Shown: piece by piece, positions 5,540 through 56,500 of the stretch | How positions within the stretch are numbered: the first letter of the stretch is position 1 | Layout of the letters: the number at the start of each line of letters is the position of its first letter | Source of the DNA: Polytrichum commune | Lineage: Eukaryota; Streptophyta; Polytrichopsida; Polytrichales; Polytrichaceae | Direction: 5' to 3' | Assembly (NCBI GenBank): GCA_950295325.1 | Contig: OX485804.1 | Span: 45,942,001-46,006,000, forward strand | DNA: 64,000 nt | Translations under genes and position numbers: made by a program | Notes under the pieces: generated by a model | The model's input: only the letters and a program-made list of their open reading frames with translations | Databases searched by the model: none | What the model was told of the DNA's origin: nothing

Positions 5540-5610
5540 CACTAGTAGAAAACATGGTAAAAAAGAACCGTAGTCGTTTTCCCATTACAGTTCTTTTGAC
5601 CACTGTTTTG
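5540..5610. repeat. CACTA left terminal inverted repeat
   Basis: 71 bp beginning CACTAGTAGAAAAC. Its reverse complement at 27103-27173 differs only at one position (ATTACAG against ATTACGG). Preceded by target duplication ACG. Confidence 0.95.
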
Positions 5611-20900: not shown

Positions 20901-23252
20901 GTGAAATTTCTAAGGTTCAAAGTGGGTTTGGTAGATGACCCAAAACCAACACTGGAGCCTGATATTTTAAATCAATATGTACATTCTTCAAAATCAATAT
21001 GTACTTGTAATGCAAGAGTTTAGGGTATCGATTGTGAGTGGGGTTATGGTTTTAGCAAGCTCTACCTCTCTTGAGAAGGTGCTTTCTCATGCTGTGTTTG
21101 ACATGGACACAAATGATGCATAATTGTTGTAATCCAAATGGTGGAATATCTTTAACGTGCTACATGGATTGGCCGCAGAGACTTCCAATTCGGCACCTGC
21201 TGGACGTTATGCACATTGAGCGCAACATATGTGACAGCTTGTTGAAACTGCTATTTGGAGGGAAAGACACTGCAGCATCACGTCGAGACATGGAAGAGGA
21301 GAGAATACGAGAACATTTGTGGGTTCGACGAGGGCCGTTAGCAGGTGGAAATTATTTCAAACCTGCGGCACCATATGTACTCAGCAAAGAGGAGCAGAAG
21401 ATATTTTTGGAGCAATTGAATGGTATCTCTGTACCGACGGGATACTGTGGGCCAATAAAGCGGCACATACTCCGGAATCGGATTGGTAACATGAAGTCAC
21501 ATGACTTCCACATATTTTTTCAGTTTGTACTCCCTGTTTGTTTGAGGCATCTTATGGATTCTGGGCCTCGACAGGCCATAATCCGATTGGCAAGGTTGTT
21601 CACTATGATATGCAAGAAAGTCATAAATGTAGCTGAGTTAGAGCTTCTTCAACATTATGCAGCTGAAACCATGTGCTTAATGGAGATTTGGTTTCCTCCT
21701 TCCTTTTTTGACATTATGGTCCATTTGCCAATCCACCTTGTTAGACAAGTGAAGTTGTGTGGTCCAATTGCAAATGCTTGGTGCTATCCGGTAGAGAGGC
21801 ACTTGAATGTTTTGAAAAAATATGTCCGGAATAGGGCACACCCCGAAGGTGCCATTGCTAACGCCTATATGTATGATGAAGCTTTGGGTTTTTGCACCGA
21901 GTACTTGAAGTTGTATCCTTTCACACGGCGAAGGATTTGGGACGATGAAGAGGAGCTAGGCGATTGTGGAGAACTATTGGAAGGAAGAGCCCTACACCGA
22001 GAACTAACGAGTGACGAACGACGAGGAATCCATTCTTGGATTATAAGGAATTCGGAAGCAACCAGGGAGCCATGGAGGTAAGCTACATGTATACTTTGCC
22101 ATGAACAATCTCTCTTTGGCAAGCACCTCTAATGTTTCTTCCGTGAAGTTGAACATTGACTTTATTTTATTTATGCATGATGTAGGCAGTACCAGGCCCT
22201 TGTGGAGCAACTAGAGGCGGACAGGGAAACCTTCAGAAGAAATGCTGCATTGAGAGGGCTTACACGAAGAGAACAATATAGGTATCCAAATGACCTCTTA
22301 CATGGACTGCCTGACTTTGTGGATTGGTTGCCACAGTACACGACCCAATTGGTGAATGCCCATGGTTCTAGCAATGTCGACATTGATTTACTCCGCCTCT
22401 CGGCTCTTCCCTCAAAGGAAGCCGAGACTTACCAGCAAATGTGGGCCTATGGGAATCACTATAGGGTGGAGAACGAGGGACAGGATCTTGGATTTGTGAC
22501 CCAAGACTATGGCATCGCCAGTATATTTGGAGCGGAGGAGGGACGGAGTGCAGGCGTGACCATGGTAGGAGTACTGAAAGAGATCATCGTCGTACGGTAC
22601 TCGGCACAGAGGAGAGTTGTATTTCGTGGATCCTGGATCCGCAATGACCCTGGGCCACGATCATCAACGAAGGTAGACCAATATGGCTTCACCGTGGTAC
22701 ATTTCAATGATCGAATAGCAAGAGACAGGGAACCATATGTGCTACCGGCCACAGTCCGCCAGGTAAGGCATGTGTTGATCATCAACACAGGCATGTTGGA
22801 ATGTGGCGTACCTCGCTGCATTATGTTTTATTATATCTTGCAGCTAAGGATGTGCTAATATTTTCTCAAGGAACACAATGACTTGTTATCCATTTCCTCA
22901 CATGGAACAGGTGTTCTTCATCCAAGACTGGTTGCATCCTGGGTGGCGTGTGGTGCTGCAGAAGGAGCCGCGATCAAGGAGAGTATTAGATAACAACGAC
23001 GAACAAATATTGGGGATATCAGGGGATTTGAGTGGCCTGCAACTACCGGTGGACATGAACGCAGCAGAATTCCGCCCAAATCTGATGAATGCCGGGGAGA
23101 CAGTTCCAGCAGCAGAGATGGCCAGGTTGAATGCCTTGGTCAGGGGGGAGGGACCACATGATGGCCAACATGCGAGAGCTCCTGGGCAAAGGGGAAGGGG
23201 AAGGGGAAGGGGAGGCAGGAGGAGAAGATTGCCTAGGAGGAATATGAACTAG
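17994..23252 (+). CDS. TNP2: CACTA transposase, TNP2 type
   Basis: Five exons join in frame with GT-AG borders: 17994-18230, 18350-20203, 21179-22077, 22186-22762, 22911-23252, about 1302 residues. Near residues 35-60 is a Cys/His transposase-associated zinc motif (CPCNLCGGRRR then RHLRHRGRH). A second zinc-like pair (CPSGCC, CPVCEADRY) lies near 368-388. The TNP2 core (Transposase_21) follows: NYNLPPW near 500, DFPAYG near 577, CPVCG near 596, and LDVMHIERNICDSLL across the exon 2/3 join near 705. The C-terminus near 1140-1200 has the DUF4216 pattern (FRGSWI..., VDQYGF, then VFFIQDW), and an Arg/Gly tail ends the protein. TNP2 proteins cut and join CACTA ends. Intron 2 (975 bp) contains a dispersed MITE-like repeat. 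No internal stop is seen. The start is the first ATG pair in exon 1 and may be incomplete. Confidence 0.88.
20930..21080. repeat. MITE-like repeat in TNP2 intron 2
   Basis: About 150 bp starting GGTAGATGACCCAAAACC and ending GGTTTTAGCAAGCTCTACC, i.e. imperfect inverted ends. A related copy lies at about 52418-52555 in intron 3 of the PTST2-like gene, so this is a dispersed short element present both inside the CACTA element and in a host gene. Confidence 0.6.
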
Positions 23253-27176: not shown

Positions 27177-27880
27177 GGAGGCCTCGTGGAAGGAGAGTAC
27201 GTAGTTCAACATGATTTGTGGACGTAGCGGTCACGGTCTACTTGGTGGAGCGCCATGAGATCGGTGCGCTGTATTTTATGAAGATATAGCCGGTTTGAGA
27301 CTTGCCTGAAACGGGGTTTGTCTTGAAGCCAGAGTTTGCGTATCCAATAATGTCACTGGAAGTATCCTTGCAGAAGTGTAGGCCGAGATCCTCCGTGCCG
27401 CGGAGGTAGCGCAGGAGATGCTTGAGGCCCTGCCAATGCCGGGAGGTTGGTTTCTGACTGTGACGCGCGAGGACGTTGACGGCGAATGAGATGTCGGGAC
27501 GGGTATTCGTGGCGAGGTACAGTAGAGCTCCAACTGCGGCTAAATACTACGGTTTGTTGATCTCCTCCTCGTTGTCATCTGCTGGTCGGTAGGGATCATC
27601 TTCAGTGCGACTCTTGCCAATTATGGGAGCTAAAAGCGCATTGGCATTGCCCATGTTGAATGAGCGGATTAGTTTCTTCACATATGTTTGTTGATGAAGT
27701 AGTAAGCTCCCATCTGCATAATGTTTAATCTGTAGTCCAAGACAATAGGATGTGCGCCCCAACACTTTCATTTCAAACTATTTGGTTAGTAGGTTTTCCA
27801 TAGGCTTACTCAAGGTTGGGGTGCCAATAGAGTTTAAGTCATTGACATAGACTGCGAGGATGACAAAACCGGTGGTGTCT
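27177..27880 (-). pseudogene. Copia reverse transcriptase/RNase H, 3-prime half
   Basis: Minus-strand frame containing FVILAVYVNDLN (the RT catalytic region, with VND in place of the usual VDD), CLGLQIKHYADGSLLLHQ, then TRPDISFAVNVLA and LLRYLRGT, typical of copia RT into RNase H. At least two in-frame stops occur (a TAG near 27550, another TAG near 27240), so it is decayed. It belongs to the 45-kb copia element. The frame crosses the CACTA insertion point. At about 27880 the sequence switches abruptly to a plus-strand RT fragment. Confidence 0.85.
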
Positions 27881-28250
27881 TAGTAGCTCAAGGTTACACA
27901 CAAAAACCTGGGATTGATTTTGAACAAACATATTCCCCTCTTATGGATAGCATATCCTTCCGGTACCTCCTAAGTCTAGCCATCCAAATGGCATTAGAAA
28001 CCCGTCTCCTCGACGTAGTCACAACCTATCTCTACGGTGACTTAGATGCCCAAATTCACATCAAACCTCCTCCAGATCTCCTACCAAACACTACACGTGC
28101 ACAACCCATGCGCTTCTCTGGATTGAGGATATGCAAAGCCCTTTATGGCCTAAAGCAAGTAGGCCAGGCATAGTACCATCACCTGAAGTCCTTCTTGATT
28201 TCTCATGGGTTTCAAACTCACCCCGCCCCACCTTGTGTCTTCGTCCTACT
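27881..28250 (+). pseudogene. Copia reverse transcriptase, N-terminal part, opposite orientation
   Basis: Plus-strand frame with LVAQGYTQKPGIDFEQTYSP, LETRLLDVVTTYLYGDLDAQ and ICKALYGLKQVGQA, then a TAG, then YHHLKSFLISHGF. This is the RT part that should directly precede the minus-strand RT half ending at 27880. The head-to-head arrangement shows an inversion or a joining of two copia copies. Confidence 0.82.
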
Positions 28251-28362
28251 AATCTCACTTTGAATCTAAGAATGTTACCATGTTTGTCTCGCTTACAAGT
28301 GAAAATCAGTTTGTGTCCTATCGGTTTGGTAATGAGATCGGTGACAAGGAGTCCAAAGACGC

Positions 28363-28732
28363 CTCGTTATCAACACCGTTAGCTCTTCCACTATAGCTCT
28401 TCCATCATAGTTTTTTCTAGCTCTTGCTCTTGCTTTTTTTCACCCTTTTTATGTTCTTTTCTCCTCCTTCTACAACATCTCTCCGTTAACCATAGCAGTC
28501 CACGAGCGTAGAGAACAACCTTAGGATTTCGAATTAGCAACAAAATTGCAAAACTTAGAGATAGATGTGAACAACAACCTTAAAGACGGTAGTGTAACAC
28601 AATTGGAAAGGACAATTACTATAGCCGCATGTATTGTAACCTCATGCACTGTAGCCGCATGCAATTGAGCCCAAATTAACACAGTTGATTACTATAGACC
28701 CCACAGTCATGGCCACGCAACGCCAACCCCGC
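28363..28732 (+). pseudogene. Copia 5-prime leader and gag start, plus-oriented copy
   Basis: This 370-bp stretch (GTTATCAACACCGTTAGCTC... to an ATGGCCACGCAACGCCAACC gag start at about 28710) is the reverse complement of 49572-49943 with roughly 5% differences by eye. It lacks the LTR that should precede it. The gag frame is split by the LTR-like insertion at 28733 and resumes at 30838. Confidence 0.8.
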
Positions 28733-30833
28733 TGTCGGGTAGAGAGGGTTCCGCCTTGGGAAAGCACTGGGCTTTTGGCTGCAACTAGATTTGTTTATCG
28801 GACCGTCGTATCTTCTGGTCTTCAAGAGTCTCGGTCTTCAGTTTCTTCAAATCTTCAAACTCTTTCCCATCGGTGTCGCGCACCTCTCCATGAGGAGTGC
28901 CCGAAACACCATGGGCACAAGGGGGACCCCGGAGTGACACCCGGGACTTGTGGCGCCGTTGGTGAGAGGGCCCAAGTGATCCTAGTGTGGATGAGGTCCC
29001 CAGGCGTTGGGAACGCCTCCCATCCACGAAGACTAGGAGGCACAAGGGTAAGGCCATGAGCTATGCGTAGCTCATGGCGTAGTGATTCTAGAATGCTCAA
29101 GAACACCTCAATCGGAGGTGTGAGCTAGGAGTTATGGCCATTTGAGTGGGGCGCTGTCCCGGGACAGCGCCCTGCTACAGCAGTGCCTGGGAGTGATTCC
29201 CGGGACTGCCAAGGTTCAAACAGGCATAACTTCCTCAAGACTTGCCCGAATGGGGCAAGTGAGGAGTCCATCGGCATCTACGTGAAGCGTAGATGAAGAT
29301 GGAGTGGTTGGTTGCTGGAATCAGACATCATACAAGGAAGTTATGATGGTCTGAAGCTGCTGGGGGCTTCTAGGCCCAGCGGCTAAGGGAAAATGTCCAC
29401 TTGGCCCCAACTCTTGGTAGAGAGACAAGAGGTTGGTTGACGGTGGGGTAGGGGCCCCGCGTAGAGTCCTAGAGGCTTATATGGGTGAGGTGGTGTGGCC
29501 TCACCCACCCGAGGCCGAACGGCACGGCCTCCATGGGCTTTGGCCCATTGTGAGGCCATAGTTGCCTAGTATGCTTCGGGTTGTTGTAGTGTTGCTCCGG
29601 CAACGCGATGATCAACATAAGATTGGACTTCCATGAATGGAAGTCCACATCTAAGGAGTGGTTACCGATTAAAGGGGTGAGTCCCGAAATCAAAGTAGGA
29701 GGGTTGGTTCCCCTCCTATGAACTAATGGTCCGGGGTTAGAGGAGCTAACCATTAGCATGGCGGTATGTGAAGGGTTAGCGACTCGTAACCTTTGCTAGA
29801 ATTGAAAATTGGCAAGATGGTCAAGGGGGGGCTAGCAAGGGTTGCGACAGTCGGCCTATCCTGTTGCAGCTCTAAATGGGTTAAGGATAAGGGTAGGGTG
29901 ATAAGAAACCACATGCCTCAAACGGGTGAAACGGGACGTCAAAACACGAGTTGACGTCCGAAAGATTGGCTCCTAAACTTTCAAACCCACAATGACCAGC
30001 AATCGTGCCTCACCAATGGGAACAACAGAATACAATCTTGTGGGTCATCAATCCCACTTTGTTGTTACAAACACAAAATGGGGTTTTTATGGATTCCCAC
30101 AAAATCCGCAACAAATTTACGATGCAAAAAATCAAATGCGACTAGCCTCCAAATCCGGTTGGGATTCACAGAAATGACAACGAACCACAAGCCACAACAC
30201 ACTTGAATCTTGAGAAGTCTTCAAATCTTCATATGAATACCAAATTGAGCAAATGAGATCTTTACAAAAAGCTAACAATAAGTACTACACTTCCTCAAAG
30301 TTTTGTTGCAAACAAAAGACATGTCCGTCTTCTATGGTCGGTCGAAGTCTCAACCCTTCTTTTTAAGAGCCAACATACCTCCCTCCACTCAAACTAGCAC
30401 AACTTTTTGCTAACTTCAAATCAAGCAAGTGAGATCACTCTAGATAAACAACACCATGAAACACAATTCCTCCATTATTTTTTTCAATTTTTTTTTCATA
30501 AACTCACACACCATCCGCTTCAACCCAAAACCTCTTCTATTCAACAACCTCTTCTCTTACAACCACACCAAAAATAATCCTTTTTCTGAGAGAGACAAAA
30601 TCCCCTTTTTACCTCATCACATGGGCTTATAATCTCTCATTGGTCCAAAAATAAACTAAGAATAAAACAAAAGATAAGACTAAAAGGGTAAACTAAAAAT
30701 AACTAAAAAATAACTAAGAGTAAAAAAAAAGTAATCTATTTCTATTTCCTTTTACTTTCCTCCAAATCAAATAATCACAATGCAATACTAAATAAGTACA
30801 CATTTATATAGTGTACGCATTTACATTACGACA
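28733..30833 (+). mobile_element. LTR-like insertion, TGTCG...CGACA, 2.1 kb
   Basis: It begins TGTCGGGTAGAGAGGG and ends TTACATTACGACA; the outermost 5 bp are inverted repeats. Flanks are CCGC on both sides (28729-28732 and 30834-30837), so the target duplication is 4 bp. Removing it restores the copia gag reading. It holds no long conserved frame. A shorter relative lies at 45742-46897. Both look like solo LTRs or non-autonomous LTR units; the parent family is not identified. Compared with the shorter copy it has about 0.95 kb extra (roughly 28890-29850). Confidence 0.75.
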
Positions 30834-30837
30834 CCGC

Positions 30838-31720
30838 GAGACTCGAACACATTCTTTCTTTTTCGATCCGCTCGAGCTATATGGATCCAATTACTTAGGG
30901 TGGAACATTGACACGCGTGCATACTTGCGTGCAGAGGAACTCGACACCACGATCGCTCCTGCACACGAGGAGGAGATCCTAACCTCACACAAATGACATA
31001 CGCTACTCATCTTGCGTCGACACCTCGATTCTTCACTTCGACAGCAATACATCCAAGTCGAGGATCCTGCCGAATTATGGGCGGCGCTGGCGGCACGATT
31101 CAAGCATGAAGAGACCATTTTTCTGCCACAAGCCCGGAGCGACTGGATCGGCCTCCGCGTAATGGATTTTCCAAATTTCCTCGCATTCAACTCCGAGCTT
31201 CACCGCATTGTAGCCCAACTCCGGCTCTGTGGCGACACCATCAACGACGCCGAGATGATCGATAAGACCCTCTCTACTTTTCCTCCTGCTTGTGCAATTT
31301 TGGTTCAACAATATCGCAACATGAAGTTTACTACACATTCCGAACTCATGTCCTACCTTCTGTTAGCCGAAAAACAACAACAACTGCTCCTCAAGAATGC
31401 AGAGTCAAGGCCAGCTAAGGAGATTCACAACAACGAAGTCCAGATCCCGCTCATGACAACTAGCTCGGCACCCACACCACACCCGAAGCCGGGCAATCCA
31501 AGCAGGGAGTCCCACATCTCCGACGCATCACGCCAAAAACCAAAGGGAAATTAAAAGCCCGAGCACACGTGGAACCGATCTTCCAAACCCCAAAGGTACG
31601 CGAATCATACCAAAACCAACCGATCCTCTCAATCGTTGAGAAAAACAGAGAAGGGAACTTGTCATAAATGCGCCAGAAAATGCCACTATGCTAAAGTCTT
31701 CGAATGACGACACCATCGAA
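30838..31720 (+). pseudogene. Copia gag, plus-oriented copy
   Basis: After the insertion the frame resumes RETRTHSFFFDPLELYGSNYL, the start of a copia gag. It continues with LRRHLDSSLRQQYIQVEDP and RSDWIGLRVMDFPNFL, a UBN2-type gag core. It ends with a degraded zinc knuckle near 31662 (CHKCARKCHYAKVF, final Cys lost). A stop near 30994 and a frame change break it. The gag packages element RNA. Its orientation is opposite to the enclosing copia element. Confidence 0.8.
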
Positions 31721-33984: not shown

Positions 33985-35400
33985 TTTTCATTATGGCATG
34001 AGATTTTAGTGTTTCCAAGTCCAATAGGTTACATGTTGATAGTTTAGGTTTTAGGGCATAGTCTGCCCCGATGCTAGTGTTTCCAAGTCCAACAGGCCAC
34101 ATGTTGATAGTTTAGGTTTCGCTTCATTCATTTCAGGTATGCATTTAAGATTGATCAAAATCTGATTTTTAAGTGTACGACAGTCTCCAACTTTAGTTGC
34201 AATCTATGAAAATCATCCGGGAGTTTTAAGGCATAGTCTGCCCCGATGCTAGTGTTTCCAAGTCCAACAGGTTACATGTGGATATGTTTTGCTTAATTGA
34301 TTTCAGGTGGGGTATTTAGATTGATCAAAATCTGATTTTTAAGTGCTTTTAAATGTTCGAACTTCAGCTACTATCTGTTACAATCAACAGGGAGTTTCTA
34401 CGACATAGTTTGTCCCGATCCTAGTGATTCCAAGTTCCATTGATTTCATGTGGAAGTTTTCGAGTTTTGTTTTATTTGAGATTGATCAAAATCTAATTTT
34501 TAAGTGTACGACAGTCTCCAACTTTAGTTGCAATATGTGAAAACCATCCGGGAGTTTTAAGGCATAGTCTGCCCCGATGCTAGTGTTTCCAAGTCCAACA
34601 GGTTACATGGTGATATGTTTTGCTTAATTGATTTCAGGTGTGGTATTTAGATTTATCAAAATCTGATTTTAAGTGCTTTCAAGTGTTCGAACTTCAGCTA
34701 CAATCTGTTACAATCAACAGGGAGTTTCTACGACATAGTTTGTCCCGATCCTGGTGCTTCCAAGTCCCACTGATTACATGTAGATGTTTTCGAGTTTTGT
34801 TTTATTTAAGATTTATGGAAATCTGATTTTTAAGTGTTCGATAGTCTCAAACTTTAGCTGCAATCTGTTAAAATCAACTGGGAACATTGTTTGTCCCGAT
34901 GCTAGTGTTTCCAAGTCCAAATGATTACATGTTGATTACTTAGGTTTTGCTTCATTCATTTCATGTATATTTTTGAGATCTATCAAAAGTTGATATGTAA
35001 GTGTTCTCTAAAGTCTTGACCTTTAATTTGTTATTGTTTCAAACTCAACAGGGGAGGTTTTGGGGCATAGTTGAATTTGATTATAGTTTTCTCAAGTCCA
35101 ACTGGTTACATGTTGATATTTTCATAATATGCTTTATAACCTTCATGTATATTGTATGCATTCCTAAAAAGTTATGGGTAATTTATGAAGAACCTCGACC
35201 TTCAACCTGTCATGTTTTTCAAACTCAAGTAGGGAGGTTTTTGAAGATAGTCACACTTGATCCTAATGTTTCTAAGGTCAAGTGGTTACATGTTGATATG
35301 TCCATGATATGCTTTATTCATCAAAAATATATTGTTTGAATTCATAGCATATTATGAATATCTTGTCTAAATTTGTTTTGGTGAGTTCAAAAAAATTAAT
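33985..35400. repeat. Tandem array of about 150-180 bp units in an intron
   Basis: The phrase CATAGTCTGCCCCGATGCTAG or a diverged form recurs at about 34061, 34236, 34408, 34567, 34738, 34889, 35069 and 35248, followed each time by TTTCCAAGTCCAACAGGTTACATG-like sequence and GATCAAAATCTGATTTTTAAGTG. Spacing is 151-180 bp. At least eight units, increasingly diverged to the right, fill the intron between the first block and the main exons of the methyltransferase-like gene. Confidence 0.85.
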
Positions 35401-39892: not shown

Positions 39893-40960
39893 CCATAGGC
39901 ATGGCTCTCTGGAAGAATTGAGCCCGCTCCTGCAAATACTCTGCCCAAATGTTTGGATCATCCAAGTCCACAACATGAGCTAGTTTTTTCTGAATAGAAC
40001 TCGGGAGTATAGGCTCACGTCCATACAACAACTGATACGGGCTGTAGGACGCCAAAGAGGCATGCCTATTAAATCGATAGCCCATAGCAATCCAAGGCAA
40101 CATAAGGTCCCAATCCCGGTGGCTCCCCCGAAGTAATCCATAATTCCTCAAGCCACGCTTGGTTGTCTGAACAACCCGTTCAGCCAAGCCATCCGCCTCC
40201 AGATGATCCTGAGAGGTGGTGCGGTGATCTATGAGCGTCTTAGTACACAACTCCTCAAAAGTACCGAGAAACTCCCTCCCTTGGTCCGTCAATACCTCAG
40301 CCGGTGCTCCAAAACGTGCCAACACACGATCCAAAAAGGCGGCCGCGGCCAACTCTGCAGAGTTTTGGGGTAAAGCAACAAGCTCAATCTACTTGCTAAA
40401 ATGCCCCACCATCACCAACACGTACTTTGCTCCACATGGCGTAACAACCAACGGTTCCGCAAAGTCTAGCGACCAATGGTAGCCCAATCCCATGATAGGT
40501 AAGGGCTGTAACTGAGGTGACAAGGTGTTAAAGCTAGATCTGACCCGGTCACAAACTTCACACCTCCCGACATAAGCAGCCACATGCTGATACATGCCAG
40601 TCCACCAATATTGGCCACGCAACATCGAATATGTCTTGCGTATGCCAAAATTGGCCAAGTTCCTCGTGCATTTGTCGCACCAAGGAGACCCTCTGATCCG
40701 GCCTAGGGATAATACGCCTTGTCCCATCTGACCACAATCGAAATAACAAATTGTTTTCCCAACTGAACCTTGTTATTCGATGTCCAATCCTATCCCTTTC
40801 CATTGCCGAAATAGACGAAGGAAAGGTCCCCTGCTGGAGCTTATGCAATATAGGAAGATCTTCCCATATATTCGCAACAGTTTGAGGTCGATCAGTCTCA
40901 TCATCCGAGCCTTGTATCGGAACCTCAACAGCCGCATACCAACCTGGAACCGCCTCTCGA
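39893..40960 (-). pseudogene. Gypsy integrase, truncated
   Basis: The frame shows a zinc-binding CEVC pair, then SLDFAEPL (first catalytic Asp), VLTDQGREF (second Asp) and HLEADGLAERVVQ (catalytic Glu), the DDE integrase core that joins cDNA to host DNA. At least one frame shift near 40650 and an in-frame TAG near 40390 break it. Similarity stops at FFQRAMPM, so the C-terminal GPY/F or chromodomain region is missing. Confidence 0.85.
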
Positions 40961-41018
40961 TCACAATCTCCATGCCACCCGGCCCCGGTCAAGTCCTCAT
41001 CCAAAGGACTTGGATTGC

Positions 41019-41339
41019 GTGATAGTCCATCTGCATCCAGGTTGGTAATTCCAGCACGGTGCACCACCTCAAAGTCATACTCTTGAAGCAACAAAGCCCA
41101 TATGGCGAGCTTGCCAGTAAGCTTATCCGACTCCATCAACCACTGTAACGGCTGATGCTCAGTCACCAAAGTAAAGCGCTGACCATAGAAATATGGCCGG
41201 AAATGGGCAATAACCCACACCGCCGCCAATGCTTCTCCCTCATAGGACGAATAATTGGCCTCCGCCGTGTTGTTGCTTCGCGACGCGTAAGCAACAACAT
41301 ACTCCCGGCCAAAGTCATCTTTCTAAGTGAGAACTGTTC
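41019..41339 (-). pseudogene. Gypsy RNase H
   Basis: The frame encodes REYVVAYASRSNNTAEANYS, FTLVTEHQPLQWLM and VVHRAGITNLDADGLSR, a gypsy RNase H. Catalytic-type residues can be seen but the first part is lost to an interruption whose right-hand side is at about 42690. It continues toward integrase. Confidence 0.82.
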
Positions 41340-42690
41340 CTAAATTGTCACCAAAAATTCTCCACCCTTCGATTTCGTCCTAGCCCGAGTGGAAAAATTA
41401 TAATGACACGTAGAAAATCCTCCCTCGGTAATTCAATAAACATCATAAGTCAAAAACATCATAAGTCAAAAACTATAAGAATGTGTCACTATTTTTTTGG
41501 AAGTTTGGACATAGTCTCGGTTTTTTTGGCTTTCAAAAATTCATATGAAGTCCAAAAAATGAGTTCTTGGTATCCATGGATAGGTAATGAAGTCCTCTAC
41601 ATGAATATGTAATAATATTTCTACTGCCACAAAGTATATGGTCGCAATTCTACGCTGTTCCCTTTGAATCTGCATTTTTTCACTAGTTTTTGGAAGTTTG
41701 GACATAGTCTCGGTTTTTTTGGCTCTAAAAAATTCATATGAAGTCCAAAAAATGAGTTCTTGGTATCCATGGATAGGTAATGAAGTCCTCTACACGAATA
41801 TGCAATAATATTTCTACTGCCACAAAGTATATGGTCGCAATTCTACACTGTTTCCTTTGAATCTGCATTTTTTTACTAGTTTTTGGAAGTTTGGACATAG
41901 TGTCGGTTTTTTGGCTCTCAAAAATTCATATGAAGTCCAAGAAAACTAAATGCTCCAATAAGAAACTTTGCACATCCGCATAAGTATAAGGCTAATCAAT
42001 TTAAATCAAAGTATTCAAACAAAGCCATAAATTGAACTTTAAGTTATTCACGCCCAACTATTACTAACAATAGGTCAAGCCCTCTTCAAGGCCAACTAGC
42101 CTTGGCTCTTAACCTTACACCCATGCATACACACGTGCTCCTATCTTGCTTCCCACGCACCCACACTTATAACACGTGGGGTGCCAAGGAGCACGAAGGA
42201 AAAAGAGGAGGAGTGAGGAAAGAACGAGGTCTTAAATAATGAATTTAAGGAGGTGAGCACCTTCAAGGCTCACGATAAGCCTTCGAAATCTCCTCCTACT
42301 TTGTAGGCTCTCATCTTATCTCTTAAGCCCTTTTCCTAAAACAAACACCAAAGGTCCTAATTCAATCATTTAACTACCATTGGGTCTCTACCTACTACGC
42401 TCACCAACTACGGAGCTTCCTTTTACTACTACATTTTTAATCAATCCACTCCAAATGAGCCTAATGCTTAAACCTAGCTTCTTTGAAGCTTCACTCTTTT
42501 TATATTTTTGTAAATAATCATAAAACACTAAAACATCACTTGTAATGGTTTACAAGAGTTAAAACAAACATGTGGGCCCATTTTGGGCTGACATAAACCC
42601 AATGAGCTCCAGTCCGTATGCAACTAGAAAGATTTGGAAACATTTGGACGTCGAAGCACTGGAGCCGTACCCAATTTTTGCTGATCAAGC
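41340..42690. mobile_element. Interruption of the gypsy RT/RNase H region
   Basis: RT similarity stops after the NYYRRFVKNFSLI block at about 42690 and RNase H starts near 41339. The 1.35 kb between has no RT similarity. It contains a 193-bp tandem repeat and a terminal segment resembling a plant LTR edge near 42570-42690. I could not find a clean target duplication, so the boundaries are approximate. It may be a solo LTR with deletions. Confidence 0.5.
41494..41945. repeat. 193-bp tandem repeat, 2.3 copies
   Basis: TTTTTGGAAGTTTGGACATAG recurs at about 41494, 41687 and 41880, giving a 193-bp period. The first two copies are nearly identical; the third stops after GAAGTCCAAG. It lies inside the interruption of the gypsy element. 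Confidence 0.92.
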
Positions 42691-43642
42691 TAAAGTTCTT
42701 GACGAATCGTCGGTAGTAATTCGCCAAGCCCAAGAAAACACGAAGTCTCGGCACATCAACTGGTGCCGGGATCTTCTGCAAGGCATCCACCTTAGCTTGT
42801 TGCACCCCAAGACCTCCTGGAATAATCATATGACCTAGGTATGCCAGTCGGTCATGGAAAAACTTGCACTTGCCATGGTGTAAGCGCAATCCCCACCGCT
42901 GCAAGCGTTCAAAAACGGCTTGCAGGTGCCTAACATGATTTTGTGGTGTCTTGCTGAAGATGATCATGTCATCAATATAACACCGAGCAAATGGCAAGCC
43001 AGAGAGGACCTGATCTATCACTCTTTGAAACTCAGCATGTGCATTCTTGAGGCCAAATGGAAGAAACTTCCAATGGTACAGTTGATCCTTCCCATCCTGA
43101 TCAACTCCCCAGAATGCAGTCTTCACCCGATCTCCCATAAGTAATGGGAGCTGGTAATAGCCGGATCTCAAGTCCAACGGCATCGAACAATTCCTCCGGG
43201 ATTGGCATGGGATACCGATCCGACTTGGTCTTCCGGTTAACTGGACGGTAATCCCCGCACATCCGCTTATCCGTCCAATTGCCAAAGATGTTCTTCTTCG
43301 ATGGCATAACCGTAGCACAAGCATACTCCCCGTTGGACAGTTCGATTAGCCTTGCTGCCAAGAGCTCTCGGCAACGAGCCTTAACGCCAATCCGCTCGGA
43401 AACACTGAGCCTATAAGGTCTTCGAAAAATGGGATGGTCGTCCTCCAACTGAATGTGGATGGGTTTCCTTTATAGCCTTCAAGATCTTGAAGGCTAAAGG
43501 CAAAACACCTATGGTACGAGTGAATAAATGCTCGTACTTTTCGTGCCTCAGCACCAGTGAGATGAAGGCCCAATTCCAATGGCCAATCATCAAACTCTGT
43601 GGTCTTCCTCTCCACTAGAAGAGAGCCACATGGTGTTGGCAC
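42690..43642 (-). pseudogene. Gypsy reverse transcriptase
   Basis: RT motifs in order: ATVMPSKKN, MCGDYRPVNRKTKSDRYPMP, LDLRSGYYQLPL, FLPFGLKNAHAEFQRV, the catalytic CYIDDMIIFS, and YLGHMI. It copies element RNA into DNA. Two frame breaks occur, one near 43450 and one near 43190 where a short deletion removes the residues between FDAVG and LDLRSG. The upstream border with the methyltransferase reading frame (43975-43650) has stops in all frames I checked. Confidence 0.87.
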
Positions 43643-43975
43643 GCACTCTAACTGCTAATGAGAGGAGGGGGCCTTAACCATGCCCCCAACCTCTGTGCTA
43701 GCAATAAAGTCCATCCCCTCTTCATCACCACCAATATGTGATGATGAAGCCACCACCGGAGGTGAAGAAGCCAAAGCAGTTGAAACCCGTTAAGCTCGGA
43801 GCTCCTCCATGACCTGCTGCTCAAATCGAAAGATTCGTTCAGCTTCTCCAACCATGACCTCAATTCCCTCCTCCATGGATGTAGACCGCTGTGCCCCCTG
43901 ACCAAAATCCGCTGCCCCCATAGATAACAATTGGTCACCATGGTGTCATTGCAAGGCAAGGTATAAACCAACAGT

Positions 43976-45643
43976 TTACACCATGGTATGAAGATCCATG
44001 GCTTGGCCCAACACAAAGCGTTGTTGGCCCTTAGAAAGGCCAGGAGTTGCGGTGGTACCCGTGCGGAATCCTATGGCACGCTCCCGTTCATCAGCCAAGG
44101 GTTCGGTGTGGGTTTTGGTGTTAGCATCCCACACCATACCCGGCCCCCGATCGCGGAAGACGAATGACTGTGAAAATGTCATAAAGGTGGGAAAGGCCCT
44201 CCGTGGTGCTCCCACTTTGTTGACCAATGCCAACGGGGGTAAATCATCTCAAACAACCGGCAAAGAGGTCCGGTTTGGATCCAAGATGTCATCCACCTTC
44301 TGATCCAAAGGTGGAGGCATTGCAGAAAATGCTGCAGCTAAAGTAGATGACGGTGCGAGGTTGGTCCAAATCCACCGTGGCCGGGGGGCATAAGAACCAA
44401 TGCTCGCGGCATCCACAAAAATGGGATCTCCAAGGTGTTGACGAACATAATAATCACCTTCCAACACCTTGTCCCAAGAGTCTCTAAAAAAATGTACATT
44501 ATCGAAAATATACCCTGGAGGAAAAGGTTGGTAGAAAAACCACCACTGCATGAGGCGGATGAGGTCCCAAAATAGACTAGACCTGGGATCCTCTAGTCCT
44601 CCGCCTGCTCCAGCACGTGAATGGCCCTGGCATGGCCATCCCGCAATCACCATATCCACCGAACCCAAGTGTCGTAAGTCGGCCTCACTGATGAATGTGA
44701 CATCACGAGGGAGACGTGAAAAACACCCAGGAATGGCAGTTGGGTGTAACTGTTGGGGGTACAATACCATCAACTGGTGAAGATGGTGACGAGCCACACG
44801 GGTGGACACTGGAGAGTTGTCCACATAGACATACCGTTTGACTGTGAGGCCAGCCTCCAATACGGCTGTTAATCCCGTCCCAATGCCCCCAAACAGTTCC
44901 ACCAAAGTAATCCCCGCGTCTGGCGGCCGCCACAAAATGGGATGTGCCAATGCCGACGGGGCATCCGGTATGACCGGTGTCCTAGGAGTGAGAGAGAGGA
45001 CAATGTCCTCACACCTCCGGAATAGGTCGGCGGAATCGCGCCAGGGAGGAATGGGAGCCTTGGGATGGCGCACCACTGCACTCTTAGGTGCCATATCCCG
45101 TTGATCGTATGTACTCCCCATGAATGCCAGTGACTCCTCCAACAATGCGGAACCATAAGGCAAAGTATCTACAATAGCATCACATCCAAAGACCATGGAT
45201 AATGGTGCTATGGTCGCGGCCGCCGCGAATGCCACAGAAATAAGCTCCCTATGGCCGTCCCCAACAGACCAACTTGGTCGGATCCACGCCTCCTCAGTCC
45301 AGTTGTCCAAACCAAAGCCAAGAGGATAAAGTGCTTGCTGACCAACTAAAATATCATAGTTGGTTGCATCCGTCACCATACACCTAAGAAGAAGAGGTGC
45401 TGGTGGATCTCCAGGTTTCACTCGGAAGCTAAGCTGTAATGGCTCCCAAGTATAACATGTGGCCCTCTCCACGTGACCAACGGATGTGACAATGGTGAAT
45501 GGACATGGAGCCAAGTCCTCAGCCGCCAATCCCAACTCCTGGGCAAGCCTCTTGCCGATCATAACCGGTTGTGCCCCTGAATCCATCATCACACAACGGG
45601 GAGCAACCCGAGTGGCATTGCCCCCAGTCCGACTGACCACCAA
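43976..45643 (-). CDS. Retrotransposon aspartic protease fused to C5 DNA methyltransferase
   Basis: A single frame encodes first an aspartic protease (MMDSGAQPVMIG at residues 19-30, DILVG near 97), then a cytosine-C5 methyltransferase from about residue 245. Motif I is LVELFGGIGTGL (247-258), motif II YVYVDNSP (271-278), motif IV GWPCQGHSRAG with catalytic Cys338 (codon 44632-44630), motif VI FDNV (380-383; Asp replaces the usual Glu of ENV), and motif VIII RPRWIWTNL (421-429). One in-frame TGA follows at 44249-44251. The frame then continues with motif IX/X-like ADERERAIGF and LGQAMDLHTM up to a TAA at 43976. Motif order is not permuted and motif VIII resembles DNMT3-type enzymes, unlike angiosperm DRM. 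Such enzymes put methyl groups on cytosine. Its place between protease and RT suggests release by the element's protease (inference). The TGA probably arose from CGA. Confidence 0.88.
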
Positions 45644-48554
45644 ATGTCGATATCATTCACCATATGTACGACACCGGGTCGAATGCCACGGCGTTCGCGA
45701 GCAGGTCTAGCAGCTACATCAGACAGATAAGCTGCTTCCGCTGTCGGATAGAGAGGGTTCCGCCTTGGGAAAGCGCTGGGCTTCTGGCTGCAACTAGATT
45801 TTATCGGACCCATCGAATCTTCTGATCTTCAATCGAATCTTCCGGTCTTCTAGTCTTCAATTTCTTCAATTTCTTCTAATCTTCAACCTCTTTCCCGTCG
45901 ACCTATCCTGTTGCGGCTCTATATGGATAAAGGGTAAGGGTAGTGTGATAAGAAACCACGGCTTCGGACGGGTAAAACGGGACGTCAGAACACGAGCTGA
46001 CGTCCGAAAGATTGGCTCCTAAACTTTCAAACCCACGGTGACCAGCAATCGCGCCTCACCAGTGGGAACGACAGAAAACAACCTTGTGGGTGATTAATCC
46101 CACTTCGTTGTCACAAACAACCTTGTGGGTGATTAATCCCACTTCGTTGTCACACAGGAAACAAATTACGATGCAGAAATGAAATGCAACTAGCCTCCAA
46201 AACCGGCTTGGAATCACACACACAAGAAAAAGACAACGTGCCACAAGCAACCACACATTCGAGTCTTGAAGCCTTCAATTCTTTAATCTGTCCGTCTTCT
46301 ATGGTCGGTCGAAGTCTCAGCTCTTCTTTTAAGAACCAACATACTTCCCTCCACTCAAACAAGCACAAATCTTGATTGCTAACTTCCAAAACAACAAGTG
46401 AGATCTCTCATGAATCACAAATCCCTCGTATTTTATTCCATATTCTTCTCAAAACAACTCACACCGTGAGCTTCGAATCCACTTCTCTCTCTCAACAACT
46501 TCTCTCCCACAATAATCACCTAACATCTTTCCTTCACCACCTCTCCCTATCCATGCGAGAGACAAAGTTCTCTCTTATCCTCATCACATGGCTTCTAATC
46601 ACCCATTGGTCCAAAGTAACTCAAGATAACTAAAAGACAAAAATAAACTATGAGTAAATAAAAAGGTAATCTATTTCTATCATTTGGTAAAGGTAACTAA
46701 GAGTAACTATGAGTAAACATAAAGGTAAGCAACTTCTATCCACTTCTATCCTTAGGTAATGATAGCTAAAATAAACTATGAGTAAATAAAAAAAGTAATC
46801 TACTTCTATTCTTTATTATTTTTATCCAAGACCAAGAATCACAATGCAATATTAAATACGTACACATCTATATAGTGTACGTATTTACATCACGACACCG
46901 CGGATTGTGGTGAGTCATAAGACGTAGTCGGCCCCCTGTCATCTGAGGTGTGTGCATCAAAAGACGCAATGGTCTCTGCGGCAAGCCTCGCTCGCCGGTT
47001 GGCCACTTCATCGGGGTCTTCAGAAGCGGGGATGTCTGTAGTGGCTTGGGCCACGGTCAGGGAAGGTGAGGATGTTTTCCCTTCCAAAATCCTACCCGCT
47101 AAGTGGAAGACCTTAGCAGGTTGGAATTCTGGCGACGACCACTCCATAGCCGTGAACAAAAGGGTGTGCAACACTTTGGATGCCAAAGTGTGCACCATGC
47201 CAGTCGCTGGATTCGAAGTCTCCAAGCTCGAATGATGACCACTTACAGATTGGACCGCATCCGCCAATCCAAAAGATAATGGCAAACGGGCCTGGCCAAT
47301 ATGATCCGTGGGACCATTGCTCCGAGCTCGTAAGCTCTCCATATAGTCCCCTGTGGTCGAGGGCGTGGCTCGTGACACGGATTGAGCATGTGTCACCGCT
47401 GCGGAACTCACCATTTTTCCTGAGGCTCCGAACATATAATAATCCGGAGTAGAAGAACTAGCCTTAGCAGCGGAGGAGGACAATGAGTTCAAGATTTGGC
47501 CAGATGACGCCAAACTTTTGAACCTCTCCTCCAATGCTTCAATCTTCCCCTCCAACGCCTTTTCCCGATTGGAAGAAGGACGTTTCTCTGGATGGAGAGC
47601 AAAGCAGTTCTCCACCATGTGATTGTTCCACCCACAATGGGAGCACGTCAACTGCTTGGGTAAATGCTTACCTGCCCCCTTCGTCGAATCCTTTGCGGGA
47701 TCAAATGGTTTCCGCTTTGGATTGCCTACGGTCTGGGCTTGCCTTTGCTTCGAAGGACAATCCTTCTTAGCGTGGCCCGCCTGCCCACAAGACCAACAAT
47801 GCAAGGTCTTTTCCACCTCCGCCTCCGCCAATCCTGCAGTCGCGACTGGCGCCTTCCGGGATTTGCTAGAATCCACTAGCAAGGACACCAAATTAGTGGC
47901 ATCGTGCTGACACAATGCACGATCACACTGCTCCACAATGGCGAATGCCTCTGTGAGTGTCGCTCGACCACCATAGTCCATGATGATCCTGGACAGCGCC
48001 AAGTCAAGGAAGCGTTTGTCAATCTTGGACAAAAACACCTTCACCAATTGATTTTCCGCAAACACACCTCCAAATTCTCTGGTAAACCTCGCCAACCTCG
48101 TATACATGGTACGAGGTGTATCGTCATTCTCTCGTCTAAAATCTTGTATCCGCTGCATCTGGTCCCGACGGAAACCTCCATACTCCTCATGTAGATGCAG
48201 CTCAAATGCCCGCAACGGCTCAAAAACCGGCAGAGCTCCCAAAGAGGCTAAAGCCGCCTGGGTAGCCTGGGCATAACGGGAGAGTGGAAGAATAAAGCTT
48301 GACGTATTCGCCACAGCGGGAGCAGAACCCTTATCCTTGGGTACACCAGGAGAAGCTCCCTCCACATCCACCACATATACTCCCTCTGGCACGTTTGACT
48401 TAACCTCAGGGACGGCCATGAAACTGGAAGCTGCGCCTTCCTTCAATGCGGATACCAACTCAACCCGAGTCTCCCAGTACCGCTCCACTTGGCGCAACTC
48501 CATCCAATGAGCCTCCGTCCACTGCTCATAAGTTTGGAGAGTTTCGTGCTCCAA
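45589..48554 (-). pseudogene. Gypsy gag with two CCHC zinc knuckles, split by an insertion
   Basis: The frame 48554-46902 has a retrotransposon gag core at about residues 115-230 (FRRDQMQRIQDFRRE, TMYTRLARFTREF), zinc knuckle CWSCGQAGHAKKDC at 253-266 and a second, CSHCGWNNHMVENC, at 304-317, then a Ser-rich tail. The LTR-like insertion splits it. After 45737 the same frame runs on to 45589. Gag binds and packages element RNA. The protease-methyltransferase frame begins upstream of the gag stop and lies in the -1 frame, with an overlap of at least 55 nt. That could be frameshift expression or a mutation. Upstream of 48554 the frame is open back to a TGA near 48620 without a clear start. Confidence 0.85.
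45742..46897 (+). mobile_element. LTR-like insertion, second copy, 1.16 kb
   Basis: Begins TGTCGGATAGAGAGGG and ends TTACATCACGACA, with CCGC duplicated on both sides (45738-45741, 46898-46901). Removing it and one CCGC rejoins the gypsy gag frame exactly. It matches both ends of 28733-30833 in the same orientation but lacks about 0.95 kb of the middle. It contains a 34-bp tandem duplication near 46080-46155 (ACAACCTTGTGGGTGATTAA). Confidence 0.8.
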
Positions 48555-48872
48555 ATGCTGAGGCAGAAGCTCGAACGTATACCAATCGTTAAAATTGGTA
48601 TTGCGTTGGCTATTCTCTCACATTCATGTACGAAACCGGATTTTCCAGTCTTGCAGAGAAATGATCCCTGATCGACCGGAAAACCGGTCCCGTATCCCTC
48701 CCCTAGTCTCCTCCTCCATATTGTCAAAGGTTCCCACCCACAGGATGTGAGACCGAGTGATAGTCCTCACGCCGAAGTAGGCTGAAAAACCTCGTTGGGT
48801 GCTACCATTGGTTCAATGTCTGAGAGGTCCGAGGGATGACCTTCTGATGTTCATGGTAACGGATAACGATAG

Positions 48873-49510
48873 TGTTGAGTACGAGTTGTAACCATAAACC
48901 CACAATGGAATGGTCATCAAATCAACAACCCAAATGAATTAGTATTCAGGTACAAAGAGAAAAGTGGTCAAAGACAACATGTATCACCCTTCAACTTGAT
49001 GTGACATCTACAAGAAAACATTTTTCTTCTTGTTGCTCCAACAATCCGCGGTTTTCTCTGTTCCAAAACTCTGGAACTTTGTCTCTCCTTGCCCCCATGC
49101 GCCCCCTTGCATGTTACATCTCAAGAATCAAGAAAAAAAGAGAAAAAAATATAAAAATGAAGCATTCTTGCCAAGTGAGAAGGAAGAGAGTCAAACACTC
49201 ATAAGAGCTCTAAATCTCTCTTCAAATGCACACAATGAGTCAAACTATCTCTCACTCCACCGTAGGAGAATCCAAGAGTGTAAATAGGGGAAGAAGAACT
49301 TAGGATTTATTGCAAAAACATGCAATCTTCACCTCACACAAGCTTTCTCCACACACTCACTAACAAGACTTGACTTGGCAAGAATACCAAGCCAAAGAGG
49401 AGGCTCTTTACTTAGGAGCCTTCCTCTCCACATCTAGATTTATCCATCCAAATCTAGATGGATGAAATCCAACAGATAAGGTGTGGTCATCGACGCCGTA
49501 TACCGTGACA
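48873..49510 (-). repeat. Putative gypsy 5-prime LTR
   Basis: 638 bp with TG...CA edges (TGTTGAGTACG... and ...CCGTGACA). The right edge abuts copia gag sequence, whose next 5 bp, GTTCC, would be the target duplication. The partner LTR is missing, so this rests on edge structure and position only. No clear tRNA-Met primer site was recognised next to the left edge. Confidence 0.6.
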
Positions 49511-53500: not shown

Positions 53501-56500
53501 GAAATAGAGTTATCTTCTAATTGAATGGTACTTTTCGTTGGGAGTTGGTCCTTTATGATATTCTATTGGTTGTGTTGTATACAAAATCATTAATTTCTTT
53601 CCACTTGTGGTGCATGCTCAGAGGTAGTGTTTGAATCTGAATTAAGAGCAACCTATTTCGGTTCATTGAGGGCCAAACTTATTTTAGCACCTCTTGGCAT
53701 ATCAAAATGAGTTAAATCTCAATGAACCAATATAGAAGGTTCTTGTTCAAAGCTCCACACTACCTCCAAGCATGCACTGAAAACTTACTGAAACATGGAA
53801 GGTGTTGTATGCAAAACAACCAACTCCCAATGAAAAGTTTCTTTGATTGAAAGGATAACTCTAATACTTATGTCATTTCCATCACCCTCACATAATTTTG
53901 GTCCACATCAGGTGCTTGTAAAGCTTGCACAAGAGGTTGGCAGGCAGGGAATCCAACCAGGAACTCGAAAAATCAATGGTCGATACATACACTCACATCT
54001 TGCATCTAGACTTGAAGGTGAGAAACTCTATTCGCATCCATGGTCCTTCATCATTCTAGAACTTGACTTGAGTAGTCTAGGAGAACTATTAAATCACTTC
54101 ACCCATTCCTCTCAAAACGTATCTTGTCACCTTTTATTTTTGCAAATCCTTTGAGTTTTACTACTACGCTAAGAGACATTTTGTTCTAGCTCAAGGAAAA
54201 CTGAGATAGTGGATTCATATGAGTTGAGCTGACATCTTTATCTGCGTCTTGTAGCTGTTGCTAGAGCAGACACAGTTTTGATTTTGAACTAGGTAGTATT
54301 TTGTCTTATATAGCTTTGCAGCAGAAACCCTTCTCAACATAGAAAGAACTTAGTGATAGTAAAGCACCTGACTGGAAAGTCTTTCAAATTATTGAATGTG
54401 ATTGCCCTATCAGTTCATTAAAGTTACTATTGACTGTTGTAGCTCAGATAGGACTTCGAATTGTAGGTGACTGTATTGCAATTTAGTGGAAAGAATATTG
54501 TCACAACCTCCACTTATTTGTGGCCTTGAAAGTTCCTGTCAATTTGCTACTTTCAGCCTCACTCTCCGAACCCCTAAAAATGTATTGAGGGTGGAAAGTG
54601 TCTATCATGAAATGAAAATCTTATGTCTTAGTCTAACACAGGATCATTTAGAACTGTATATATTTGCTAAATGTTATGGTCACCTAAGCTTATACTTGAA
54701 TCTCTTCCGATATATATATAAAATTTCCTTCATGTTTTCTGCAACATGTTGTAATATTGGTATCTTAAGTTGTTGCAGAGATGCAGAAGGTCTTATATGC
54801 GCGTATCAAGGACGTAGATGCTGTACGAACACAGGATGTTGAACTTGTTTTCTTTGGAATGGCTGAGGTAAGAATCTTATGAAATCTTCATCAAAAACTT
54901 TCAGAGGCTGAATTATTACATTATAATAACAAAGTGTTCAGATAACATCATCAATTTCAATTAATGTTGTGATAATTACATTACTTTGGTACATTATACT
55001 ATTGCAAAAAAAATTGTTACATAAGATTCATACATATGTTACATGATAATTATATTATACGCTACTAGGCGTAATAACTACATTATATTGGAAGTTTGTG
55101 TTATTTGAATATAGAGATTGAACAGTAGAAGAGATAAAGCAGCAATTCACTTTTCTATAGATAGACCTGCTCCATGATGGCATCAATAACAATTGGAAAA
55201 CTTTCACAATTTACTCATCAATCTTATTGTCAATCTTGAAGTAGAGTTTTAAGTTTTGTAAGGTTTTGATTGCCAATGATAATAAGATCAGGTTCCAAAT
55301 GTGTCTCAGATAGATCACAATTTCATAACCAAAGTTGATACCGTTGATTATTCAATTTGGCCAGGATGTACAAGTGATGGGATCATTTGATGGGTGGACC
55401 CGTGGAGAACAATTGTCACCAGAGAGCACAGGCACCTTCACCAAATTTTCTGCTACCATAAAGCTTCGACCAGGCCGGTAAGACATGTCATAATTTTTTG
55501 AGTAAAAGTAGTGACCCTTCTTTGTGGCATTTTGAAAACAAGGAACGCTGTCTGATTATGGGCTCTGAAGCACATATATGAGTGCATAGGTGACTTCTTC
55601 AAGTTGGGTATTTTGGAATGGAGATTGCATAGTGTCATCCTCGCATTCAACATGTTCTGGTTGGGAGTTGGTTGTTTTGCTTACAATGCCTTCCATGTTC
55701 AGTAATTTTTGGTGTATGCTCGGAGGTAGTGTGGAGATTTGAACAAAGAACATTCTATATGGGTTTTATTGAGGGTCAAACTCATATTGAGGTGCTAACA
55801 TGAATTTGGCCCTCAATAAAACGGAAATATGTTCCTCTTCGTTCAAATTCAAACACTACCTCCAGGCATGCACCACAAGTGGAAAGAAATAATCATTGTT
55901 GTATGCAAAACACGAAAAGTCCCATTCCATTGAAGGATAACTGCAATATATTGCCCTAATTTTGTCAATCAGAGAGTCAGGGTTGTCAGATGTGACACGA
56001 GGGGGAGGGGAAAATTGTCTTGTAATAAACTGGTCGACCAATAAGTTTGACCAGATCGTCAATAAGGTCTACTGGACATTTTTAGCAGTTGAGTGGAAAA
56101 ATTCCAGTCGACTTGATTAGTTGACTGGATAATTCAAAGTCTGGATGGTGAGAGGTGTAGACGTCCATGCAGCCACTAACATTTAAGGTAGATGGGTCTT
56201 AAATGGAAACTTTTCCGATTCACCCACTCCTAGGATATGAAACACGTGATTAGCACGAGATGGTTAGCAATTCCAAATCAAGGCCGTAGTCACTCATAAT
56301 TTCAGAGCTCAAATGATATCTTATTCATTATCAAAGTGAAGATTCTCATGTTCAATAAGTGGTCATATAGGTCCCCCAATTGTGTTGACTATTGAGCCTA
56401 GTTATCACAATTTGAGCACATAGTCCAATCTCTTTTGAACACATGTCTTTTTGATATCCATTCTTGGAGCCTCCCTAACCACATACCGCTCAAATTTAGG

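Follow-up and report, generated by a model that had tools for sequence, protein, structure and literature searches.

Why would a retrotransposon carry a DNA cytosine methyltransferase, an enzyme of the kind that usually silences transposons? To judge from the excerpts of the literature that we used, this is an open question that has been studied in dinoflagellates and one alga. It is raised again by a locus in a 64,000-nucleotide stretch of contig OX485804.1 (positions 45,942,001 to 46,006,000; we call this whole stretch the window). A first-pass annotation of the window had reported, at 43976..45643, a plant Ty3/gypsy element with a full-motif cytosine-C5 methyltransferase (MTase). By its sequence, this copy is a relic of a numerous and seemingly recently mobile Ty3/gypsy-type family. 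The reading that we favor, and hold to be reasonably probable, is that the first open reading frame (ORF1) of this family encodes Gag, protease, and a DNMT3-like MTase; that readthrough of a UAG codon adds reverse transcriptase (RT), RNase H, integrase, and a PHD finger; and that the MTase is packed into the particle and methylates the element's own new DNA. With a family like this one, numerous in what is probably a land plant and with end repeats that are identical in some copies, the question becomes testable.

The protease and MTase motifs, for which the first-pass annotation had given no strand, are on the minus strand only, in a 467-amino-acid frame that runs from 45652 to 44249; on the plus strand, the region of 43976..45643 is full of stop codons. 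The frame contains the protease motif DSGA and the MTase motifs I (ELFGGIGTGL), IV (WPCQGHS), VI (FDNV), and VIII (RPRWIWTNL). Its match to DNA_methylase is above the Pfam cut-off (E = 6.7e-10), while the protease is matched twice but weakly, at E values of 0.004 and 0.007 that do not reach the cut-offs. Pieces of RT, RNase H, integrase, and CCHC gag surround it, all on the same strand (Pfam). The report of a C5 MTase in a gypsy-type element was thus correct. However, this copy does not have the full set of motifs: a TGA (44251-44249) parts motif VIII from motifs IX/X, a motif-X-like GQAMDLHTMV lies past the TGA in the same frame and is followed by a second stop, and motif VI reads DNV and not ENV, the form in most aligned relatives. 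Motifs I, IV, VI, and VIII are in one frame and in normal order, as had been stated, but IX/X lie past the TGA.

The protease-MTase frame is not a chance match, because there are 91 further matches in the genome at 75-89% identity. We searched the 408-Mb assembly (64 contigs, of which seven are 42-78 Mb) with this frame as the query and obtained 92 matches including itself (91/688 candidates scored). Many of the matches lie in uninterrupted frames, the longest of 1372 amino acids, and many others contain stops; two rows of this list look like halves of one copy. A second query, P0012, gave 79 other places (79/646 candidates scored) that do not overlap with the first list. Combining the two queries, at least 170 genomic places have the MTase.

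Is the MTase a regular part of the element? A search with RT gave 143 scored places among 2134 candidates. At 99 of the 143, a listed MTase lies 4.5 kb or less upstream (59 from the first list and 40 from the second). We opened 6 of the 44 RT places with no listed MTase upstream, and all 6 carry one, in two cases as two aligned pieces. Four loci opened from the second RT group have it as well, one with an internal TAA. So the MTase is in 10/10 of the RT-picked copies that we opened, and among these we found neither a copy without it nor a single insertion with its own ends. A single chance insertion of the MTase is rejected by these ten copies, by the 99 RT places, and by the many genomic matches, which bears out the suggestion that the enzyme belongs to the element and is conserved in it.

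Looking for full-length copies, as the first-pass annotation had proposed, was fruitful. Ten copies that we fetched by their MTase all have a pair of direct repeats of about 334 bp. The repeats of a pair are 90.7-100% identical, and two pairs are 100% identical, which suggests that the family was recently mobile. In 3/10 copies (C3b, C5b, and C1a), both reading frames are open: ORF1 has 1364-1366 amino acids and is followed by one stop codon and then, in frame, by ORF2 with 1048 amino acids. In C6a, ORF1 is open (1368 amino acids) and ORF2 is interrupted, and each of the remaining six has a broken ORF1 or ORF2. In well-preserved copies, ORF1 contains the MTase as well as weak matches to CCHC and protease (Pfam). 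We also examined L001, which was the one relative among 13 matches in a pattern scan of genome contigs. Its metagenome-assembled genome (MAG) bears the label Synechococcales. L001 has 88% identity in ORF2, and it is probably a plant contig that was put into the wrong bin. ORF2 of both C5b and L001 contains RVT_1, RT_RNaseH, Integrase_H2C2, rve, and a C-terminal PHD finger (E = 9e-11; 4e-10 in L001). No chromodomain was found in these two ORF2 proteins (Pfam, E <= 0.05), so we do not class the family with the chromoviruses.

The end repeats are not simple. In copies of subfamily S1 they are split direct repeats in the order A1-internal-B1-A2-B2, with an A of 334 bp and a B of about 107 bp. Both S2 copies (2/2) have the same order, with an A of about 440 bp and a B of 105-107 bp. 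B2 was not found within the L001 contig, though the B1-GC-A2 junction is there. The element starts with TGTCACG and usually ends with ACACGACA, and the inner junction, TTTACACGACA-GC-TGTCACG, is identical in C5b, the two S2 copies, and L001. This junction between B1 and A2 is palindrome-like (L001:7045-7063 and the genome copies) and is kept across subfamilies. A 4-bp target duplication is present in the flanks of 9/10 copies and, from the printed flanks, in 2/2 S2 copies. Given the split repeats, the 4-bp duplications, and rve, the family combines DIRS-like repeats with a DDE integrase.

By profile and by predicted structure, the MTase is closest to DNMT3 (DNMT3A/3B), with about 24% identity over 270 aligned residues. 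Like the DNMT3 de novo enzymes, it is non-permuted (motif order I-IV-VI-VIII-X). Unlike them, it is fused to Gag and protease in an element, it has no ADD or PWWP that Pfam could find in ORF1, and its motif IV is PCQ, where the DNMT3A row of the profile comparison has PCN. The first-pass annotation had noted PCQ and considered the origin to be open on that account. The motif does differ, but DNMT3 is the closest solved relative by both profile and structure. An origin from DRM has a weaker profile match. An origin from phages is not supported either: 8 phage rows fall outside the family at 100/100. (The MTase trees contain no DNMT3 rows.) The phage rows came from a scan of viral contigs with A2, in which 28/44 matched and were taken, from the type of collection, for phage C5 MTases; 8 of these were used as the outgroup. 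A viral-contig scan with P0017 gave three pattern matches, none related.

The C5 catalytic motifs are kept across a 31-row alignment of relatives. Still, the enzyme might act on RNA or bind nucleic acid within the Gag particle, in which case any DNA methylation would be incidental. The MTase lies with Gag ahead of the stop and in the same polyprotein as the weakly matched CCHC knuckle, and RNA methylation has been raised for the LINE (long interspersed nuclear element) enzymes (PMC5890265). We think this unlikely, though it deserves more weight than the other alternatives below, because the closest enzymes by profile and structure act on DNA, the C5 motifs are kept, and the MTase is more constrained than gag.

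That constraint was found in both of the between-lineage pairs with an estimable rate. The ratio of nonsynonymous to synonymous rates (omega) for the MTase is 0.10 between subfamilies and versus L001, with synonymous divergence (dS) near saturation. From these rates, the MTase is under long-term purifying selection. This bears on whether the MTase is just a passenger, that is, a host gene captured by chance that hitchhikes in the element and does nothing for it. Many copies have decayed, including the one in the window, and some close pairs have an omega near 1, as expected for a passenger. On the other hand, the MTase is found in S1, in S2, in a further group (L068, 70% identical to S2), and in L001; its length is about 336-339 amino acids wherever an ORF1-type member spans the whole domain; its omega is low at near-saturated dS; and its placement in Klebsormidium nitens is homologous. 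We consider a passenger very improbable.

Divergence is uneven along some copies. Between C5b (loci L048/L049; L048 in this comparison) and C1a (L050), dS is 0.31 for gag and 0.07 for the protease, and between C5b and C2a (L042) it is 0.04 for gag and 0.27 for the MTase. It is as if the copies recombine.

How are RT and integrase made if a stop codon follows the MTase? We examined the stop context in 30 loci, and in 27 of them the alignment spans the end of ORF1. The stop is TAG in all 27, with CARYYA after it in 26/27 (24/25 distinct copies); L054 has CGATTA instead and has lost the pattern. S1 copies have CAATTA or CAGTTA, encoding Gln-Leu, while S2 copies and L001 have CAATCA, encoding Gln-Ser. 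Since the codon changes between Leu and Ser with CARYYA intact, it is the nucleotide pattern that is kept and not the amino acid. UAG with CARYYA is the signal that defines type I readthrough in plant viruses (PMC5382211), and the CAR YYA is described as essential (PMC2754532, which also cites rice gypsy elements as candidates for readthrough). As in tobamoviruses, UAG is followed by CARYYA; here this putative readthrough signal lies between Gag-protease-MTase and RT of a retrotransposon. Readthrough is known for SIRE1.

Alternatively, the UAG could be an ordinary stop, with ORF2 expressed by splicing, reinitiation, or internal entry. A methionine at ORF2 residue 14 in S2 (2/2 copies) would fit with this, and in distant relatives P0057, P0113, and P0123 hold protease, MTase, and RT in one frame, so the stop is not a general feature of the group. 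But ORF2 is in frame directly after the stop, and its first methionine, in L001 as in four S1 copies, is at residue 117. The stretch before this methionine is conserved protein, because C5b and L001 are identical at 45/60 of residues 1-60 (and at 242/270 of residues 61-330). The persistence of CARYYA through the Leu/Ser switch also argues against an ordinary stop, as does the RNA downstream of the C5b stop, which folds better than shuffles (z = -2.96). An ordinary stop therefore seems improbable to us.

If readthrough works, the MTase would be made at the level of Gag and in excess over RT. Such a ratio would point to a function inside the particle. In the reading that we favor, a minority of ribosomes would read through UAG-CARYYA to make a Gag-protease-MTase-RT-RNase H-integrase-PHD fusion. 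Gag-protease-MTase and the minor fusion product would assemble, and the protease would release the parts, so that the MTase would be packed beside RT. RT would make the complementary DNA (cDNA), and the MTase would most likely methylate cytosines, either in the new double-stranded DNA or in the copy that has just been integrated. Insertion, with a 4-bp target duplication, would be the work of the DDE integrase, whose PHD finger at the C terminus probably recognizes a histone tail. The element may gain by resembling host DNA, by quiet silencing after insertion that spares the host, or by protection of its cDNA. The PHD finger suggests that a chromatin writer and a reader are paired in one element.

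The main target of the MTase might instead be rival elements or the host genome as a whole, and not the element's own DNA. Expression at the level of Gag from many copies could act in trans, and interaction with the host epigenome is discussed in PMC5890265. However, the methylome of K. nitens resembles that of land plants (PMC5890265), and we give this idea little credence.

Several results weigh against the reading that we favor. Among close pairs, omega for the MTase is mixed (0.15-1.08): it is 1.08 for C1a-C6a (5 synonymous and 17 nonsynonymous changes), 0.93 for L061-L062 (3 and 9), and 0.56 for both C5a-C6a and L060-L062. Observed/expected CpG is 0.74 in C5b ORF1 versus 0.60 in the window, so there is no special depletion, and in old copies the excess of C-to-T at CG is no more than modest. 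We looked to CpG depletion as a sign of self-methylation and saw none that was clear. The retrotransposon MTase of K. nitens showed no activity in yeast, a result that is called inconclusive there (PMC5890265). Also on this side are the small number of copies with both reading frames open, the loss of CARYYA in L054 (1/25 copies), and the early methionine in S2.

The initial search against proteins yielded 36 hits (E <= 0.001). Most of these are ena and jgi records; one is from Closterium and one is labelled Obscuribacterales. The latter (P0007, from a MAG) and L001 are retroelement sequences of this family under bacterial labels, and one of them is named DNA cytosine methyltransferase. A longer query gave 34 hits, of which 15 are ORF1-like proteins of 1228-1451 amino acids. 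For both P0047 (ORF1) and P0072 (ORF2), the longest contig listed has 8955 bases, which suggests that they are from one contig.

A search with ORF2 gave 997 hits, of which the best 120 were listed. Among these listed hits, K. nitens has P0123 with the MTase and P0146, P0167, P0169, and P0175 without one in frame; Closterium has P0149 and P0173 with the MTase and others without; no MTase was seen in frame in the liverworts Calypogeia fissa and Riccia sorocarpa; and Tetrabaena socialis and Haematococcus lacustris are represented too. ORF2 of C5b is 62% identical to Calypogeia (over 758 amino acids), 62% to Riccia (over 514), and 64% to P0073, a eukprot record. P0123 is more distant: it is 33% identical to C5b over 575 amino acids of ORF1 (protease-MTase), 46% over 923 amino acids of ORF2 (RT-integrase), and 34% identical to P0009 over 556 amino acids.

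We tallied domain orders for P0052-P0187 (136 of 187 proteins). There were 46 with RT-RNase H-integrase-PHD, 35 with RT-RNase H-MTase-integrase-PHD, 23 with RT-RNase H-integrase, 14 in which one frame holds the MTase followed by RT, and 18 that were partial or other. The related MTases between RNase H and integrase form one group in two trees (100/99 and 97/92), and the RTs of these elements also form one group (100/99), which includes one frame without an internal MTase. This sister group includes P0059, P0060, P0061, P0063, P0065, P0067-P0069, and others, along with P0070 and P0170 (Tetrabaena). Its motif IV is often ECQ instead of PCQ, and a PHD finger mostly follows. Elsewhere in the RT tree, frames that have no MTase are interspersed with frames that have it ahead of RT (12 changes), although the former may hold an MTase in an unseen ORF1. 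An old vertical history across the green algae is therefore unsupported by the RT tree. This tree has 69 rows (RT-RNase H spans outside 300-480 amino acids were excluded and two groups were limited in size). The second MTase tree has 36 rows (incomplete domains, P0123 among them, were left out and one group was limited in size). In these two trees and in the first MTase tree, the group labels of metagenome proteins rest on the single frame seen or on the id range.

A broader scenario would be a green-lineage clade that has had a DNMT3-like writer since before the chlorophyte-streptophyte split, at one or the other of two sites (protease-RT or RNase H-integrase) and often with a PHD reader. In land plants, a leaky stop on the Gag side would give an excess of the writer, which would mark the element's own DNA before integration at a place chosen by the PHD finger. 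We offer this only tentatively and doubt that all of it is right.

The host is most likely a bryophyte, perhaps a moss. A contig of 146,561 bases in the assembly has rbcL in an open frame (Pfam) and the gene order atpB, rbcL, trnR-CCG, accD at 30% GC (atpB and accD were recognized by eye). A trnR-CCG at that position is typical of land plants without seeds and of some streptophyte algae; flowering plants do not have it there. With this gene order and with liverworts as the nearest named relatives, the family's host is probably a land plant, in agreement with the first-pass annotation. Partial rbcL matches on two large contigs of the assembly (G000:C3:14137891-14138196 and G000:C2:70106055-70106189) are perhaps plastid DNA that moved to the nucleus.

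Compared to C5b, the window copy retains the 5' repeat and the greater part of both reading frames, all on the minus strand. The 5' terminal repeat A1 (49177..49510, 334 nt) is 91.3% identical to A1 and A2 of C5b. The leader between A1 and ORF1 is mostly deleted (48914..49176, with two matches to the 1549-nt C5b leader). The gag part of ORF1 with its CCHC knuckle (46908..48913; open frame 46890-48617) is 84.5% identical to C5b ORF1, and its zf-CCHC match (E = 7e-4) is slightly below the cut-off. ORF1 is split between gag and protease by an insert of about 1.17 kb (45736..46907) that is not in C5b ORF1 and resembles another repeat, at 28729-30838 of the window. Next are the aspartyl protease domain (45265..45600, from the DSGA motif and Pfam, with approximate ends) and the degenerate C5 MTase domain (43939..44955, with DNV and with stops at 44249-44251 and 43976-43978; the ends are approximate, from C5b residues 934-1272). 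The UAG of ORF1 with CAGTTA, a CARYYA context, is at 43649..43657, as placed by alignment to C5b (in the stop-context set, the window copy is locus L030). The 5' part of ORF2 (42595..43654), which encodes RT in a broken frame, has a strong match to RVT_1 (E = 4e-24) and is 88-91% identical to C5b. ORF2 is split by an insert of about 1.25 kb (41345..42594) with a 193-nt tandem duplication (41494-41879). The RNase H and integrase part (39893..41344; Pfam and comparison with C5b) runs to the truncation point: 3' of 39893, nothing matches the PHD end, B1, A2, or B2 of C5b. The first-pass annotation makes no mention of the putative readthrough stop, nor of the split repeats and the PHD finger, which this truncated copy lacks. 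Because the copy is 3'-truncated, we found no pair of long terminal repeats (LTRs) for it, either by an LTR search in part of the window or by self-BLAST of the window.

The window also contains other repeats. There is a DNA transposon with Transposase_21 and DUF4218 at 18296-22078, which we take to be of the CACTA type. Copia-type pieces are at 5216-5584 and 27838-28379 (both by eye) and at 30997-31551 (a gag match, E = 2e-5, slightly below the cut-off). A diverged array of direct repeats is at 34007-35346, with a spacing of about 330 and a sub-spacing of 175-180. Inverted repeat arms of about 93-265 nt, about 2 kb apart, are at 53571-55912.

Among known elements, the closest is KnitGypsy-Dnmt3 of K. 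nitens, which has an MTase in its Pol polyprotein, DIRS-like repeats, and a ratio of nonsynonymous to synonymous rates (Ka/Ks) below 0.2 (PMC5890265). Our family shares with it gypsy-type RT-RNase H and a DDE integrase, a non-permuted DNMT3-like MTase in a polyprotein, the DIRS-type arrangement of repeats, and purifying selection on the MTase. P0123 presumably represents this published element, given its species and domain order. It has protease-MTase-RT-RNase H-integrase and is homologous to both reading frames of our family, and because of this shared order and homology, we place the family with KnitGypsy-Dnmt3. The comparison with the charophyte case that was made in the first-pass annotation was apt. 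The two also differ: P0123 has protease, MTase, and RT in one frame, while our family has UAG-CARYYA between MTase and RT. The host of our family is probably a land plant. There is a PHD finger at the end of our integrase; the record of P0123 is partial and does not cover this end.

SymbioDIRS-Dnmt3 and SymbioLINE-Dnmt of dinoflagellates, which we compared by description, are also retrotransposons with a cytosine DNA methyltransferase under purifying selection, but they are of other classes (tyrosine-recombinase DIRS or LINE) and acquired the enzyme independently (PMC5890265). The split direct repeats (A1-internal-B1-A2-B2) are like those of DIRS/PAT elements; however, our family has a DDE integrase and 4-bp target duplications and not a tyrosine recombinase, so it is not a DIRS element.

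For the PHD finger, there is a green-lineage comparison in Chlamydomonas, whose REM1, beside which TOC1 can be set, is a gypsy element with a PHD finger in a separate, reverse-oriented reading frame. We know of no MTase reported in REM1.

In the literature, which we covered in part (so that absence from print is not shown), we found no land-plant member, no Gag-side MTase with readthrough, and no variant with the MTase between RNase H and integrase. Relative to the known systems, what appears to be new here is the abundance of the family in a probable land plant, the Gag-side MTase with a readthrough signal, the PHD reader, and the sister group with its MTase between RNase H and integrase.
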